From Merismopedia glauca CCAP 1448/3 (GTDB taxonomy: Bacteria; Cyanobacteriota; Cyanobacteriia; Cyanobacteriales; CCAP-1448), in NCBI RefSeq assembly GCF_003003775.1, contig NZ_PVWJ01000045.1, positions 1 to 37,895 on the forward strand: a stretch of DNA of 37,895 bases, read 5' to 3'. The stretch's first letter is position 1; each line of letters begins with the position of its first letter. The translations under genes and the position numbers were made by a program. Positions 28,136 through 34,121 of the stretch are shown piece after piece. Under the pieces are notes generated by a model. That model saw only the letters and a list, made by a program, of their open reading frames with translations. It was not told the DNA's origin and made no database searches.

Positions 28136-29158
28136 TTATTTAAGCGATTCGGTAGTATCCTGCAAAATCTGGGTAGCTAGTAAAGCTAATACTCCCAGCC
28201 CTGCAACAGTTCCCCATTTGGCAGCAGGATGAAAATCGAACCAGTCAAAGAAACTTGGAATTGTCTTGTCGCTAAAGTCTCCAGTTGTTTTGTCATAACC
28301 TTCGATCGGTTCAAACAAATTATTTGGATCGCTTTCGGATTTGATGGTGTCGGTTTTTTGCCCTGTAATACCTATCAGATTTAAAAGTGCATCGGTTAAC
28401 TCTGGAGAAAGCTTTTGGAGTAAGTCAAGAAATCGCCCCACATCTCCCACAATAATGTCGCGGGTAGGATGTTCGGCAACGTGCAAAATTGCTTTGGCAA
28501 CCAAACTAGGTTGATAGTAGGGAGGTACTCCAGTCGGTTTCACTCCCAGTTTGGTGAGAGCTTTGTTATAAAAAGGAGTGTTAATTACAGAAGGCATTAC
28601 GTTGGTAACGCTAATGGGGACTCCTTCATGCTGTAGCTCTACCCGAAGTGAATCGAGAAAGCCTTCGATTCCGTGTTTAGATGCAGAATAGGAACTTTGA
28701 AGCGGCATCGATCGACGAGCTTCAACTGAAGAAATATGGATCAATGCGCCTCGCCCCTCTCGTCTTAAGTGAGGCAATGCTGCCATTGCTCCGTATACTT
28801 GACCCATGAGATTAACGTCAATCACCCGCTTAAACTCATCGGGAGTTACTTGCTCAAATGGGGCAATAATCGCAGTTCCTGCTGCGTGTACCCAGGTATC
28901 TAAACGCCCGTAATATTCGACTGTTTTATCTGCCACTTTCTGTACCTGTTCAAAGACAGAAACATCGGCAGGAATAGCGATCGCCTCTCCTCCAAACTGA
29001 GAAATTTCGCTGACCAATGATGCCAATCCCGATTGACTGCGAGCAGAAACCACTACTTTTGCTCGTTGTTTGGCAAACGCCAGAGCGGTTTCCCGTCCAA
29101 TCCCACTAGAAGCTCCGACCACGGCAACAACTTGTTGGTCAATTGCTTTGAGTTTCAT
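28136..29158 (-). CDS. short-chain dehydrogenase/reductase with C-terminal membrane helix
   Basis: This 340-residue protein is a classical SDR. The cofactor motif GASSGIG (15-21) opens the Rossmann fold, NAG is replaced by HAAGTA, and the catalytic Ser, Tyr and Lys lie in HISSVEARR and YSASKHG. Beyond the SDR core (about 1-250) is an extra C-terminal part with EPIEGYDKTTGDFSD, then a helix (about 315-335, WGTVAGLGVLALLATQIL) that should anchor it to a membrane. It would reduce or oxidise a carbonyl or hydroxyl group, substrate unknown. It heads the minus-strand trio with SRPBCC and ADH genes; I recall similar trios in stress-related clusters but cannot confirm it here. Confidence 0.88.
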   Translation of the reverse strand: MKLKAIDQQVVAVVGASSGIGRETALAFAKQRAKVVVSARSQSGLASLVSEISQFGGEAIAIPADVSVFEQVQKVADKTVEYYGRLDTWVHAAGTAIIAPFEQVTPDEFKRVIDVNLMGQVYGAMAALPHLRREGRGALIHISSVEARRSMPLQSSYSASKHGIEGFLDSLRVELQHEGVPISVTNVMPSVINTPFYNKALTKLGVKPTGVPPYYQPSLVAKAILHVAEHPTRDIIVGDVGRFLDLLQKLSPELTDALLNLIGITGQKTDTIKSESDPNNLFEPIEGYDKTTGDFSDKTIPSFFDWFDFHPAAKWGTVAGLGVLALLATQILQDTTESLK

Positions 29159-29745
29159 TCATTTGAGTTAGAGTTTTGGCATACCTTGGTATATTAGCGA
29201 CCTAAAGAATAGGGATCTTCTTTCTCAAGAGAGAGACTGCTTTGGCTGGGAGACAGTAAATGCACAAAAACCAATGCTGAACGTCTATTCCTTACGGTTT
29301 AGTCAAAACTTATCAATCCTGTAGTAACGAAGAATCAGGGCTGACTGAAGAGGACGTGGAGAGTGGGAGACGGGGCGACGCGGAGAAAAATCAAGACATT
29401 CCATTCCTAGCTGGAATCTCCTGGCTTTAGACATGGGGTGTCCCCGTGTCTTCTTCACTTTCAAAAAAATTCCTTTCCCAAAGTTACAAAAGAGGAATAG
29501 AGGTCAGGGGACAATAACATTTATGCAACTTTTTCTAACTGACAAACCACTTTTTTTAAGTTATTCTCCAGCCATGAGATTTGAAAAAGCGATAGGATTC
29601 CCCTGACAGCAAGCAGTTTAGGTATATCGAAAGCATTTAGCTGAAAAGACCAACAGCACTGCCAATGAAGTTATCAATCTGGCTGGGTTAGGAGGCTACC
29701 TATTGATGGTAAAGCCAGTGAGCCAAAAGTTTGGGAGGTAGGAAG
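29159..29745. other. 587-base intergenic region between divergent genes
   Basis: No gene is convincing. GTCCCCGTGTC-like imperfect hairpins lie near 29425-29455. The 19 bases at 29528-29546 recur exactly at 33815-33833. The minus-strand SDR and plus-strand ATP-grasp promoters must both be here. GGAGG at 29734-29738 is the ribosome-binding site of the ATP-grasp gene. Confidence 0.5.
29528..29546 (+). repeat. 19-base exact repeat ACTTTTTCTAACTGACAAA
   Basis: The same 19 bases lie on the same strand at 33815-33833. Each copy sits in a long intergenic region upstream of a plus-strand gene. Confidence 0.75.
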
Positions 29746-30675
29746 ATGATTTTAATTGTTTCATCAGCGACTGATATTCACTCTCATTTAGTGATGAAGG
29801 AACTGCGGTATCTCAAAGCCGATGTGACTTTGCTAGATTTATCTAAATTCCGTCAGCCTTTAGAATTAGCGATGCATTATGGGAGCAGCGATCGCGATTG
29901 CGCGCTGCAAATTACTTCAGCTATTAGCCTGCCTTTGAATGATTTTAGAGTAATTTGGTGGCGGTGTCCTCACATTGCTGATGGAGAGCCAAACAACTCA
30001 GATCGGGTTAATCCTGCGGTTGGCGATACCAATATTTATCAACAATTTGCCAGTTTATCACCAGCTATAGATGTTTTTTGGGTAAATCACCCCCTCCGCA
30101 ATGCCACTGCTACTAATCAAGCTCATCTTTTGCGAGTTTCCCAGGAAGTTGGCTTAGGAATTCCTGCAACTTTAATTACTAATAATATCCAACAAGTACA
30201 AGAGTTTGTTTCTAGCAATGATGCCACCTACAAACTTTTTTCAGCTACCGAACAAGGCTGGAAAGAAATATTAGTCCCTATCGGCGATTTATTAAATGTT
30301 TCCGATAGCCTTGTTTATAACTCATTAGTTTTGCAAGAAAGTATTCCCTCTCAATTTGATGTCAAAGTAGCAATTGTGGGAGAAAATATTTTTTCCGTGG
30401 CTCTCTACAAGATCCAACATTCTCAATCAAAGGGAAATTGCGAGTCGATCAGAACTGAGATTTTTGAATTACCATCTGAGATTAAAACCTCTTTGTGGCA
30501 ATTAATCTCGAAACTAGGATTAGTTTATGCCACAGTCGATCTACGCTTAACCCCTAAATATGAATGGGTATTATTAGGACTTAATCCTGTAGGTGATTGG
30601 CTCTCATTTGAAGAGCATACTCAACAACCAATCACTAAAAGCCTAGCCAAATTATTGGCTAGTTGCGATCGCTAA
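29746..30675 (+). CDS. ATP-grasp protein resembling graspetide (MvdC/D-type) ligases
   Basis: This 309-residue protein has the N-terminal pre-ATP-grasp domain of the microviridin-type ligases (ILIVSSATDIHSHLVMKEL, then VIWWRCP) and HPLRNATATNQAHLLRVSQEVGLGIPATLITN. An ATP-binding Lys appears in YKLF. LQESIPSQFDVKVAIVGENI resembles the family's QEYVPxxYDxRVTVVG strand. The final metal-binding motif is altered: the family's LEVNPxG reads LGLNPVG here, so the usual Glu is Gly. Activity may be lost or different. The start ATG follows GGAGG at 29734-29738. The dioxygenase gene begins 54 bases later, so the two are probably co-transcribed. No precursor peptide gene is visible nearby. Confidence 0.72.
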   Translation: MILIVSSATDIHSHLVMKELRYLKADVTLLDLSKFRQPLELAMHYGSSDRDCALQITSAISLPLNDFRVIWWRCPHIADGEPNNSDRVNPAVGDTNIYQQFASLSPAIDVFWVNHPLRNATATNQAHLLRVSQEVGLGIPATLITNNIQQVQEFVSSNDATYKLFSATEQGWKEILVPIGDLLNVSDSLVYNSLVLQESIPSQFDVKVAIVGENIFSVALYKIQHSQSKGNCESIRTEIFELPSEIKTSLWQLISKLGLVYATVDLRLTPKYEWVLLGLNPVGDWLSFEEHTQQPITKSLAKLLASCDR

Positions 30676-30714
30676 ATTTAACTGTTAAATTTGTAGCAAT
30701 CTCCATATTTTTCA

Positions 30715-30721
30715 AAGGAGG
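30715..30721 (+). promoter_or_regulatory. strong ribosome-binding site of the dioxygenase gene
   Basis: AAGGAGG lies eight bases ahead of ATG 30730 and is nearly the full anti-Shine-Dalgarno complement, the strongest site I see in the window. Confidence 0.75.
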
Positions 30722-30729
30722 AATATATC

Positions 30730-32364
30730 ATGATAGGCGAAAGTGATAACCGTCGAGATAAGTCTCGTGATGGCTGGAAAAATACGCTTTCATCTTTTCT
30801 GTTAACTAATTTTGACGGGTTCTGGAATTGGATTCAAAGTGTAGATAAATTAAATCGCTTAGTTAATAGAAAGTTGATTAATCTGGCGATCGCTTATATG
30901 CCATTTCGCCCTCACCCTGCTAGTACAATGCATGAAGGAAAATACCGTTCTTGGGAATCATTAACGGATAAAACTTATAGCGGACTGCATTTATTACCCC
31001 GAACATCTCCCCAAACTACCCCACCCATAGCTAAACTTTCCGAACTATTTATTAGAGAAGGAGAAGAAATTCCTTCACCTAAATCAACAGTCTTATTTTC
31101 TTATGTAGCACAGTGGTTTACAGATGGTTTTTTGAGAACCAGAATTGATGCTCCAAACCGCTTGCGGAATACTTCAAATCATGATATTGAGTTATGCCAA
31201 TTATATGGATTACGTCCTGAAACTGCTCATCTTTTACGAGAAAAACAAGGAGGAAGACTCAAAAGCCAAACAATTAATAGTGAAGAATATGCACCTCGAT
31301 TGTATGAAGATGATGGTACAGTTAAAGCTGAATTTAAAGATATAGCTTGGTTGCCAGAACTAGAAGAAATCACCCAAAGGATTGAACTAGAGCCAGCAAA
31401 AAAAGTGAACCTGTTAGCTATGGGTGTAGAAAGAGCTAACGTCCAACTTGGCTATTTAATGATTGGCAATCTACTTTTAAGAGAACATAATCGAATTGCT
31501 AGATTATTAGAACAAAAGTATGATAAGTGGGATGATGAAAGATTGTTTCAAACTACTAGAAACATTATGACAGCTTTACTGATTAAGCTAGTCATAAATG
31601 AATATATCAATCATATTGCTCCCTATAACTTTAAATTCTCTTGCGATCCACTTGCCTTTAAAGGTACTGAAAAATGGAATCGTCCTAACTGGATGTCCCT
31701 AGAGTTTGCTTTATTATATCGCTGGCATACTCAAGTTCCTAATAATTATGTGATTTGTGGTAAAGCAATACCTGCTTCTGAAGCGCTGTGGAACCCAGAT
31801 TTATTAATCAATCACAACTTTGGGGAATTATTTGAATCAGCTTCTTTACAAAGATCTGGTAAAGTTTGCCTCCACAATACACCTGCGTTTTTAACAGGAT
31901 TCAGACAGTTAGATAATGGAAAAATTATCAGAGTCGGGGTAGATGAAAAAAGCATTGAGTTAGGGCGCAAAGCCAACTTACAAAGCTATAATGATTACCG
32001 AGAATTGTGTAAGTTTCCGCGAGTTACTGACTTCGATCAGATTACAGGTTCTCCTAACATTCAAACAGCTTTAGAAAAACTTTACGGTCACGTAGATAAT
32101 ATAGATTTCTATGTAGGTCTGTTTGCTGAAGACTTACGACCTAAATCTACTTTACCTCCGTTGATGGGCAGAATGGTAGGAGTAGATGCATTTTCTCAAC
32201 TTATGACTAATCCTTTATTTAGTCCAAATATCTATAACGCTGAAACTTTCTCAGCTTTGGGATGGGAGATAATTCACAATACTAATAGCTTGTCAGAACT
32301 ATTACAGCGCAATCTCAATCATCCTCCCAAAGTTTATAAAGCCACCCTAAATTTTGAAGATTAA
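30730..32364 (+). CDS. cyclooxygenase-like fatty-acid dioxygenase (animal haem peroxidase family)
   Basis: This 544-residue haem protein aligns by eye with cyclooxygenases. LLLREHNRIARLLEQKY (248-264) matches the COX REHNRV helix, LEFALLYRWHTQVP (324-337) holds the catalytic Tyr330 and proximal haem ligand His333, and DERLFQTTRNI follows the COX order. The distal region AQWFTD (127-132) keeps the Gln, but the usual distal His appears as Asp132, so ordinary peroxidase activity may be weak. It should oxygenate an unsaturated fatty acid to a hydroperoxide. Its partner is probably the catalase-related gene 101 bases downstream, as in the pair I recall from Nostoc punctiforme, where the dioxygenase forms a 10S-hydroperoxide. 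No signal peptide is visible. Confidence 0.85.
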   Translation: MIGESDNRRDKSRDGWKNTLSSFLLTNFDGFWNWIQSVDKLNRLVNRKLINLAIAYMPFRPHPASTMHEGKYRSWESLTDKTYSGLHLLPRTSPQTTPPIAKLSELFIREGEEIPSPKSTVLFSYVAQWFTDGFLRTRIDAPNRLRNTSNHDIELCQLYGLRPETAHLLREKQGGRLKSQTINSEEYAPRLYEDDGTVKAEFKDIAWLPELEEITQRIELEPAKKVNLLAMGVERANVQLGYLMIGNLLLREHNRIARLLEQKYDKWDDERLFQTTRNIMTALLIKLVINEYINHIAPYNFKFSCDPLAFKGTEKWNRPNWMSLEFALLYRWHTQVPNNYVICGKAIPASEALWNPDLLINHNFGELFESASLQRSGKVCLHNTPAFLTGFRQLDNGKIIRVGVDEKSIELGRKANLQSYNDYRELCKFPRVTDFDQITGSPNIQTALEKLYGHVDNIDFYVGLFAEDLRPKSTLPPLMGRMVGVDAFSQLMTNPLFSPNIYNAETFSALGWEIIHNTNSLSELLQRNLNHPPKVYKATLNFED

Positions 32365-32407
32365 GGCAGAAGTCAGAGGGCAATATCGGGGGGTCTAAAG
32401 CCTCTTT

Positions 32408-32440
32408 AGAAGCCCGACTTCTCAAAGAAGTTGGGCTTCT
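32408..32440 (+). other. 15-pair hairpin between the dioxygenase and catalase-like genes
   Basis: AGAAGCCCGACTTCT and AGAAGTTGGGCTTCT pair with one wobble around a three-base loop. No T run follows, so it may set the mRNA ends or ratio of the two gene products. Similar hairpins are widespread cyanobacterial repeats. Confidence 0.6.
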
Positions 32441-32465
32441 GAGAAATCGTTAATTAAGGAAAATT

Positions 32466-33503
32466 ATGAGTGAAGCAGTTTTAGAAATTGGGAAAGAATA
32501 TCCTCCTCAAAATGAAGCAGAATATTTAGAAAAGCTGTTAGAAATTGCTCAACACAATCTCAATCGCCAGCAAAAACCAGTGATGAGAGGGGAACACGCC
32601 AAACCTCACGGATGCGTAAAAGCTCAATTTAAGGTTGCAGAAAATCTCCCAGAACATTTACGGGTGGGAATTTTTACAGAACCTAAAACTTATTCAGCTT
32701 TCGTGCGTTTTTCTAATGGGAATTCTCGAAGCCAACCTGATAATAAAGGTGATGGTAGAGGAATGGCGATTAAACTTTTGGATGTACCTGGTAAAAAAGT
32801 TTTATCAGGTGAAGAAGATGCCACTACTCACGATTTTATCTTAATCAATCATCCGGTTTTTATTGTCAGAAACTTGCAGGATTATGTAGATTTTTTTGAG
32901 GCGGCGAAACTTGCTAAAGGGAAGTTTCCCGTCAAGTTTTTCTTTCCTGGTATAAACCCTTGGGAATGGCATTTATCAGAACTGAAAATAGCCATATCTT
33001 TATTGACTAAAAAGATCCAAAGTCCATTAACATTGCAGTATTGGAGTATGACTCCCTATAAATTTGGGGATAAGGCGATGAAGTTGAGTGCTAAACCAGG
33101 CAAGCCTAATAAATTGGCTAAATCCTATCCCAAATCAGATAATTATTTACAGCAGGTAATGTCAGAATACTTAGCAGAAAATGAGGCTGAGTTTGATTTT
33201 TTCGTGCAAATCCAAACTGATGCTCAAAAAATGCCCATTGAAGATCCGACGGTGGAATGGAATGCGCCACTAGAGAAGGTAGCTACTATCACAATTCCTC
33301 GTCAAACATTCACTTCTCCGACTCAAATTGAATTTACTGAAAATTTGTCGTATAATCCTTGGCATTCTCTACCCGAACATATGCCATTAGGCGGAATTAA
33401 TCGGGCGCGAAAACTTATTTATCAACAAATTTCCCAAATTCGCCATGACGACAATCATGTTTCTAAAAGGGAACCTACATTAGAGGATTTTGAGTCTTTC
33501 TAG
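32466..33503 (+). CDS. catalase-related haem protein (probable hydroperoxide lyase/allene oxide synthase-like)
   Basis: This 345-residue protein is a minimal catalase-type haem protein. The distal His44 lies in RGEHAKPHGCVKA, VRFSNGN is the core strand, the distal Asn lies in LINHPVF, and the proximal haem ligand is Tyr319 in R315-KLI-Y319. Length fits the short catalase-related family, not full catalases. Members near dioxygenases act on fatty-acid hydroperoxides: coral allene oxide synthase is one case, and a 10S-hydroperoxide lyase paired with a COX-like enzyme in Nostoc punctiforme is another that I recall. The ribosome-binding site is AAGGA (32456-32460). It follows the dioxygenase by 101 bases with a hairpin between them. 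Plain catalase activity is an alternative. Confidence 0.8.
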   Translation: MSEAVLEIGKEYPPQNEAEYLEKLLEIAQHNLNRQQKPVMRGEHAKPHGCVKAQFKVAENLPEHLRVGIFTEPKTYSAFVRFSNGNSRSQPDNKGDGRGMAIKLLDVPGKKVLSGEEDATTHDFILINHPVFIVRNLQDYVDFFEAAKLAKGKFPVKFFFPGINPWEWHLSELKIAISLLTKKIQSPLTLQYWSMTPYKFGDKAMKLSAKPGKPNKLAKSYPKSDNYLQQVMSEYLAENEAEFDFFVQIQTDAQKMPIEDPTVEWNAPLEKVATITIPRQTFTSPTQIEFTENLSYNPWHSLPEHMPLGGINRARKLIYQQISQIRHDDNHVSKREPTLEDFESF

Positions 33504-34121
33504 ATAGTGCTGTCATTGAGCAATCCGCTTTGGGTAGGGTGCGTCTAGATGCACCCTAATTTATATATAGCGTTTGAGAGCTTGTCCTGGTACTGTTTTT
33601 GCTGAAGCGAAAAAACTACCAATGAATTGCAAACTTTTATGAAGAAAACAACTAACAAATCATTAAATAGCCATCAGCAGTAGTCTAAGATAGTTATAGA
33701 GAGTTAGGTGCTATATTTAAGCGATATTTAACCAGATTTTTTTTTTTGAACCCAAGAACCGATAATAGATTGACTGACTGTAGAGTAGTTACAAAAAACA
33801 AACTACTTTTTACTACTTTTTCTAACTGACAAAGTAAAATCTCGATCGTAACCTGATATTGAGAAGTAAAACACCTCTAGTAGTGATGTTCAAACGGATA
33901 TATTTCAGTTCTCAAGGGGAAAGATAGAAAAGTAGAAGAGCGATCGCGAGACACTTTGTTGCATAAATTTGCGTCCTGAAGCGTATATATAACGTATAAC
34001 TGACGGGGACAAAGTTGGAAGTCTTAAGCTCTACAATTAAAACTGAAAATCAATCCCCAAAGCAACGGTATGAAGCCAACACTACTAGAACTGCACAATA
34101 GCTTAAAAATAGAGGGTTGTG
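33504..34121. other. 618-base intergenic region upstream of the HetZ-related gene
   Basis: It holds TAGGGTGC/GCACCCTA, an eight-pair hairpin (33535-33558) just after the catalase-like gene, a T12 run near 33737-33748, the exact repeat at 33815-33833, and a 32-codon frame (34070-34168) that overlaps the start of the HetZ-related gene. Nothing else is recognisable. Confidence 0.55.
33815..33833 (+). repeat. 19-base exact repeat ACTTTTTCTAACTGACAAA (copy 2)
   Basis: It is identical to 29528-29546, and lies about 290-330 bases ahead of the HetZ-related start. Confidence 0.75.

Follow-up and report, generated by a model that had tools for sequence, protein, structure and literature searches.

The arrangement of three same-strand genes in a 37,895-nt stretch of the Merismopedia glauca CCAP 1448/3 genome (hereafter, the window) raises the question of whether an ATP-grasp protein, a COX-like dioxygenase and a catalase-family protein work together as a single system, in which an ATP-dependent ligase would act on the oxylipin produced by its neighbours. 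The answer that the analysis favours, and that is probably correct, is that the locus encodes a two-enzyme oxylipin module behind a non-catalytic ATP-grasp relic. The three open reading frames reported in the initial annotation were confirmed (Table 1), with exactly 54 nt between the ATP-grasp and dioxygenase genes and 101 nt between the dioxygenase and catalase-family genes. The 54-nt gap holds no terminator-like site on the + strand, promoter-like matches are no more abundant than in shuffled sequence, and the codon usage of all three genes resembles that of the neighbouring genes. Co-transcription of the three genes is plausible. The hairpin located between the second and third genes occurs in one copy in the genome, which rules it out as a dispersed repeat.

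Table 1. Coordinates of the genes and of the smaller features discussed in the text
Feature	Position	Strand	Details
ATP-grasp gene	29746-30675	+	ATG 29746, stop 30675; 309 aa; GGGAGGTAGGA just 5′ of the ATG
Codon 278 of the ATP-grasp gene, GGA (Gly)	30577-30579	+	Glu in 93/95 relatives, one Asp, one gap; bridging Mg ligand of ATP-grasp enzymes
COX-like dioxygenase gene	30730-32364	+	544 aa; AAAGGAGG upstream
17-bp hairpin	32406-32442	+	Between dioxygenase and catalase-family genes; folding z -3.41; no T-tract after it
Catalase-family gene	32466-33503	+	345 aa

The dioxygenase matches PF03098 at 9.8e-53 and solved COX-2 at 5.8e-56. Using the key COX-family residues and substrate-site positions given in PMC13049297, Tyr330 and the proximal His333 were located within a YRWH motif, together with the central Tyr292; in common with the rest of the family, Asp132 occupies the distal-His site. 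Tyr292, Tyr330 and His333 are conserved in nearly all of the 58 dioxygenase relatives compared. A peroxidase-COX domain with the catalytic Tyr, the proximal His and the central Tyr places the protein, judging from its sequence, in the cyanobacterial COX-like family of the Nostoc punctiforme 10S-dioxygenase (10S-DOX), in agreement with the initial annotation. In N. punctiforme, a linoleate 10S-dioxygenase is paired with a catalase-related 10S-hydroperoxide lyase (Brash et al., 2014, as cited in PMC13049297 and PMC9579011). Compared with that tandem, as far as these citing accounts describe it, the dioxygenase has nearly the same length (544 vs 542 aa) and the same catalytic Tyr/His set, and a catalase-family heme protein is likewise encoded next on the same strand. 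Contrary to this, the N. punctiforme residues Thr310 and Ile483 are replaced by Ala297 and Val483, although Thr is found at the first of these substrate-site positions in 50/58 relatives and Ile at the second in 44/58. These two positions are proposed, as yet unproven, determinants of regio- and stereospecificity (PMC13049297).

The partner of the dioxygenase departs further from the Nostoc model. The catalase-family protein matches PF00199 at 1.7e-7 and has a catalase-family domain, in which the distal His44 (preceded by Glu43), Asn128 and the proximal Arg315-x3-Tyr319 are present and the heme ligands are retained. Its identity to Nostoc-type tandem partners is only 24-29%, compared with 50-55% to a different branch whose genes lie away from COX. 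In the tree, the protein clusters with proteins whose genes do not adjoin COX (support of 0.84, and of 1.0 with the proteobacterial proteins), and the residue right before the distal His, Glu43 here, is Thr in 36/37 tandem-type proteins. By these measures, it is not an orthologue of the Nostoc hydroperoxide lyase and belongs to a separate branch that is found elsewhere in cyanobacteria apart from the dioxygenase. The initial proposal that the pair is the N. punctiforme tandem was thus right about the COX family and the adjoining catalase-family gene and wrong about the branch of the latter. Cyanobacterial COX-like dioxygenases therefore have catalase-family partners from more than one branch, and it should not be taken for granted that every such pair carries out a hydroperoxide-lyase step.

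The ATP-grasp protein resembles graspetide-type ligases in its overall architecture. It matches the profile TIGR04187 over its full length (E 1.2e-43), with 149.5 bits against a curated cut-off of 350, and also scores below the cut-offs for MvdC (106.2 bits vs 425) and MvdD (105.4 vs 475). The best PDB match of its predicted model (pLDDT 78.6, with a confident C-terminal domain) is MdnC (5ig9, Z 26.9), with PsnB at Z 26.4; nine graspetide ligase entries range from 24.6 to 26.9 and RimK comes next at 22.9. The model has a pre-ATP-grasp plus ATP-grasp fold as in MdnB, MdnC and PsnB. The protein therefore shares the full-length fold and profile match with these ligases (TIGR04185/04184/04187), but it falls under every curated cut-off and lacks the bridging Mg ligand along with further invariant residues. 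An identity of only ~31% to microviridin ligases and its placement in another clade rule it out as one of them. No second ATP-grasp protein of the same family was found in the genome.

The residues lost include several that relatives rarely change. The replacements K125Q, Q128L, P193S, R207K, D231N, R233E, F276L and E278G affect residues held by 92-95 of 95 relatives, and 27 of the 77 clade-invariant positions have been lost, against 2-16 in the ten other clade members. The protein has the longest branch in its clade, of which it is the fastest-evolving member. The Asp-Glu-Asn metal set and the conserved Lys/Arg residues of the ATP/substrate site are not present in full: Asp265 and Asn280 are kept, as are Lys163 and Gln197, while Glu278 has become Gly. 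Because the nearest relative has Asp at position 278, this position tolerates some change within the clade. Altogether, the residue pattern makes a working ligase unlikely and points to a probable pseudo-ligase with an eroded ATP/Mg site. However, the intact frame, a good ribosome-binding site (RBS), host-like codon usage and the four residues kept indicate that the gene is more than a pseudogene in decay, and there may be a reason for its retention.

Genome neighbourhoods provided the second line of evidence. An ATP-grasp gene adjoins COX in 0/58 other COX-bearing genomes of the order, and neither a dioxygenase nor a catalase was found at the loci of ten relatives of the ATP-grasp protein. 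Since ATP-grasp never adjoins COX elsewhere in the genomes searched, there is no conserved partnership, an outcome that, according to the initial annotation itself, would make the arrangement incidental. The published literature searched yielded no paper joining ATP-grasp with COX-like genes. With a ligase-like gene that seems to lack its catalytic residues and is not linked to the oxygenase in any other genome searched, the proposed conjugation system of three genes is probably an isolated arrangement rather than a new pathway; the tempting idea of ATP-dependent oxylipin conjugation is unsupported and was removed by this survey.

The surroundings of the ATP-grasp clade are of another kind. 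With the single ATP-grasp protein as query, a contig scan detected no relatives, and a rescan with an alignment recovered 14 loci. Loci of the clade contain M43 or S8 peptidases, whose tails carry T/K-x4-D repeats, and a YscW-like protein. This content is shared with branches 7 and 8 of Makarova et al. (2022; PMC8939145), peptidase-associated ATP-grasps for which no precursor was detected, a likeness assigned by locus content and not by the tree of that study. In contrast to those branches, the ATP-grasp gene of the window has no adjoining peptidase and its active site is eroded. Searches of its own genome for the partners of the clade (M43 peptidase, Chloroflexi repeat protein, tail motif) found none, a weak result as they had no positive control. 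The six frames of 29159-29760 and 33504-34120 contained no convincing precursor peptide, bearing in mind that precursors can lie elsewhere. A short frame upstream of the ATP-grasp gene (VYRKHLAEKTNSTANEVINLAGLGGYLLMVKPVSQKFGR, end ~29742) gained no support as a precursor, with no repeat, no donor/acceptor pattern and an unclear start codon.

These results bear unequally on the other explanations of the locus. The most serious of them, still clearly improbable, is that the pseudo-ligase has kept a non-catalytic job, for instance by binding or stabilising the dioxygenase or the catalase-family protein or by acting as a sensor for one of them. The intact ORF with its own RBS directly before COX and the confident C-terminal domain would fit such a role, for which there is precedent in the truncated, catalytically inactive ATP-grasps typical of branch 8 loci (PMC8939145) and in partner-protein-dependent graspetide synthetases (PMC13097080); the lack of any other ATP-grasp beside COX (0/58) and its standing as the fastest-evolving clade member argue against it. 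Less probable again is the more specific proposal that peptidase-associated graspetide synthetases gave rise to a pseudo-ATP-grasp, which this lineage then recruited to serve the COX-like oxylipin pathway specifically, as its non-catalytic partner or regulator.

Much further down in likelihood stands the coupling of the oxylipin, or of its aldehyde-acid product, to an amine or peptide by an active ATP-grasp ligase, as initially suggested from same-strand neighbours 54 nt apart and the graspetide-synthetase/RimK-like fold. The replacement of the bridging Mg-ligand Glu and of several ATP/substrate-site residues, among 27 of 77 clade-invariant positions lost, makes it very unlikely, as do the absence of COX-linked relatives and the action of the family on peptide side chains (PMC13097080). 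The slimmest chance belongs to graspetide-type crosslinking of side chains, either in the COX and catalase C-termini or in a precursor elsewhere in the genome. The T/K-x4-D tails of the peptidases adjoining the clade would suit it, as would the endings of the dioxygenase (...TLNFED) and the catalase-family protein (...REPTLEDFESF), but both C-termini align with ordinary homologue tails, whose similar ends rule them out as graspetide cores, the genome search, which had no positive control, turned up neither the tail motif nor an M43 partner, and the ligase site is eroded.

In the favoured reading of a two-enzyme module, the heme dioxygenase would use a tyrosyl radical at Tyr330 to add O2 to a C18 unsaturated fatty acid, and the resulting hydroperoxide might then be cleaved, isomerised or dismutated by the catalase-family heme protein. 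The ATP-grasp-like gene would most likely be what remains, without catalytic function, of a ligase gained by horizontal transfer; it would now head the transcription unit, and its product would not ligate the oxylipin. COX-like genes also adjoin catalase-family genes in the proteobacterial plasmid tandems of Methylobacterium currus and Paracoccus yeei, whose catalase-family proteins are nearer to the type found here (36-42% identical). Unlike the window, these tandems have no ATP-grasp, and the gene order is reversed in P. yeei. What usually lies upstream of the dioxygenase is a gene for a Tle1-like phospholipase (33/58 COX loci), which is missing here, with the ATP-grasp gene in its place. 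No paper linking DUF2235 with cyanobacterial COX was found in the published literature searched. The Tle1-like phospholipase is sometimes fused to the dioxygenase.

The initial annotation placed an ATP-grasp-like gene 54 nt upstream of, and on the same strand as, a COX-like dioxygenase gene followed by a catalase-family gene, and these coordinates were verified (see table). The second intergenic gap measures 101 nt, a plausible ribosome-binding site precedes each of the three starts, and codon usage resembles that of the neighbouring genes. An upstream SDR gene is transcribed in the opposite direction, with a gap of ~590 nt, so the ATP-grasp gene would be the head of the unit if the trio is co-transcribed. 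The 54-nt gap holds no terminator-like site on the + strand, and promoter-like sites were not above shuffled sequence. The strong hairpin between the COX-like and catalase-family genes lacks a T-tract, is single-copy genome-wide and may adjust how strongly the catalase-family gene is expressed. Upstream of the trio, the CrtW-like desaturase, zinc alcohol dehydrogenase, SRPBCC-domain protein and SDR genes form a block with a third-position GC of 0.37-0.51, compared with 0.23-0.39 for most of the window, possibly a foreign or stress-related island.

Features located in the window (first six rows) and in loci fetched from other genomes (L-numbers; coordinates internal to each locus)
Locus	Position	Strand	Feature	Details
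Window	24732-29158		Gene block	CrtW-like desaturase to SDR
Window	28136-29158	opposite to ATP-grasp	SDR	
Window	29746-30675	+	ATP-grasp-like	309 aa
Window	30730-32364	+	COX-like	544 aa
Window	32406-32442		Hairpin	perfect 17-bp stem, 3-nt loop
Window	32466-33503	+	Catalase-family	345 aa
L119	10436-12004		Repeat-tailed peptidase	M43
L129	6095-7987		Repeat-tailed peptidase	M43
L130	6446-7987		Repeat-tailed peptidase	M43
L132	6431-7984		Repeat-tailed peptidase	M43
L133	6491-7969		Repeat-tailed peptidase	M43
L127	345-2204		Repeat-tailed peptidase	S8
L126	6370-7743		Repeat protein	~455 aa
L128	9416-10771		Repeat protein	~455 aa
L151	5081-7915		Phospholipase-COX fusion	in frame
L152	523-3282		Phospholipase-COX fusion	in frame
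L161	9270-12068		Phospholipase-COX fusion	in frame
L163	9278-12076		Phospholipase-COX fusion	in frame
L164	8051-10813		Phospholipase-COX fusion	in frame
L118	4712-7614		P450/COX-like pair	Rhizobium etli plasmid

Conservation of the arrangement was surveyed in 391 genomes of the order, the window genome counted, 59 of which encode a COX-like protein at E <= 1e-20. The surroundings of the 58 other COX genes (+-9 to 10 kb in most cases, with some short contigs; four encode distant relatives, 27-35% identical) were searched with three ATP-grasp, two catalase and DUF2235 queries. A catalase-family gene was present in 40 loci and a DUF2235 gene in 33, but an ATP-grasp gene in none. Broad-family ATP-grasp proteins occur in 20 of 52 COX-bearing genomes searched whole, never in the COX neighbourhood. 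The best matches of the window ATP-grasp among sampled relatives are <=31% identical; scanning 84,980 genomes with the protein alone gave no match, and a profile scan yielded 14 loci. Nine of these, together with a Burkholderia stagnalis record, provided ten full-length relatives (29-38% identical), none with a COX or catalase-family gene nearby (up to 8-12 kb per side, with some contig ends intervening). The ATP-grasp/COX linkage is not conserved.

The AlphaFold model of the ATP-grasp protein (mean pLDDT 78.6) best matches graspetide macrocyclases (MdnC 5ig9, Z 26.9; PsnB, 26.4; AMdnB, 26.3), with RimK behind (Z 22.9). The fold is alike, but family profile scores fall far under curated cut-offs, and residues near-invariant among 95 relatives are lost (K125Q, Q128L, P193S, R207K, D231N, R233E, F276L and E278G). 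E278 is the glutamate in the Asp-Glu-Asn metal set typical of ATP-grasp enzymes, RimK and glutathione synthetase among them. Of the 95 rows, 93 carry Glu here; the closest relative (L126) has Asp, and one row has a gap. The protein departs from 27 of 77 clade-invariant positions, against 2-16 in the other ten members, and its branch is the longest in the clade (1.65). Since Asp265, Asn280, Lys163 and Gln197 are retained and the frame is open, the sequence points to a protein that folds but whose active site is damaged, rather than to an obvious pseudogene. From the residue losses, the enzyme is probably inactive. These replacements and the absence of linkage in the other loci searched speak against the proposal that it couples the oxylipin, or its aldehyde-acid product, to an amine or peptide.

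The clade of this protein spans Chloroflexota, Planctomycetota, Burkholderiales and Actinomycetota. A peptidase adjoins the ATP-grasp gene in most tested members, and one locus (L131) carries a YscW-like gene. Both features match ATP-grasp branches 7 and 8, described as linked to peptidases, often carrying a YscW homologue and having no precursor that could be detected (Makarova et al., 2022, PMC8939145). The clade peptidases end in T/K-[LIVKHY]-x3-D/E repeats (e.g. PPTLKFRDDVPPTLKFREDN; KHKFQDDVKHKFQDD in L127) followed by a common tail, PF[VI]L[SA]TPHH[ST]MAW. Repeat counts are clearly above shuffles in four of six peptidases, and not in L129 and L130 under a strict Asp pattern. Plasmid M43 relatives match within the peptidase domain only, and the sole full-length match adjoins an ATP-grasp. 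The repeat-tailed peptidases are candidate fused precursors for the branches reported without one. In two Chloroflexota (L126, L128) the ATP-grasp gene's neighbour encodes a protein with repeats like LKLxSWRxxxDG; the L126 protein has no Pfam family. Neither an M43 partner nor a Chloroflexi-type repeat-protein partner nor the tail motif turned up in the window genome at the thresholds used, and it showed no second ATP-grasp of the same family.

The resemblance to the Nostoc punctiforme tandem of 10S-dioxygenase and hydroperoxide lyase held for the COX family and the presence of a catalase-family partner, but not for the partner's identity. The latter is 24-29% identical to COX tandem partners of other cyanobacteria and 50-55% to another branch, whose members in COX-bearing cyanobacteria lie, from their coordinates, on other contigs than COX or >100 kb off. 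Of 37 Nostoc-tandem-type proteins, 36 have Thr just before the distal His, whereas the window protein has Glu. It keeps His44 (distal), Asn128 and the proximal Arg-x3-Tyr 315-319, which makes heme binding likely; its candidate activities are those of hydroperoxide lyase, isomerase and catalase-like dismutase. On plasmids of Methylobacterium currus and Paracoccus yeei, COX-like genes likewise stand with catalase-family genes that are more similar to the window type, which suggests more than one origin for pairings of this sort.

Many cyanobacterial homologues share 47-55% identity with the COX-like protein, which stands alone in the tree beside a group of >50. Compared with motifs of the N. punctiforme 10S-dioxygenase (PMC13049297), it shares the central Tyr292, catalytic Tyr330 and proximal His333; the distal-His position is Asp, as in 56 of 58 relatives. 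Ala297 replaces Thr310 and Val483 replaces Ile483 at the substrate site. Its assignment as a fatty-acid dioxygenase is well supported; 10S specificity is not established. Most likely, the COX-like enzyme would oxygenate a C18 unsaturated fatty acid and the catalase-family enzyme would process the resulting hydroperoxide, the ATP-grasp protein adding no catalysis. The trio is an isolated version of an already known type.

In many relatives the fatty acid would probably be supplied by a neighbouring Tle1-like phospholipase (PF09994, formerly DUF2235), whose gene is missing at the window locus. Five loci encode in-frame phospholipase-COX fusions of 919-944 aa, and in most non-fused loci with DUF2235 a separate gene lies upstream of COX, which suggests a cyanobacterial phospholipase-dioxygenase-lyase cascade. 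Some other loci have a patatin or PAP2 gene close to COX. Fused dioxygenase-P450 enzymes are known from fungi, and a Rhizobium etli plasmid offers a two-gene parallel, with a cytochrome P450 gene immediately upstream of the COX-like gene.
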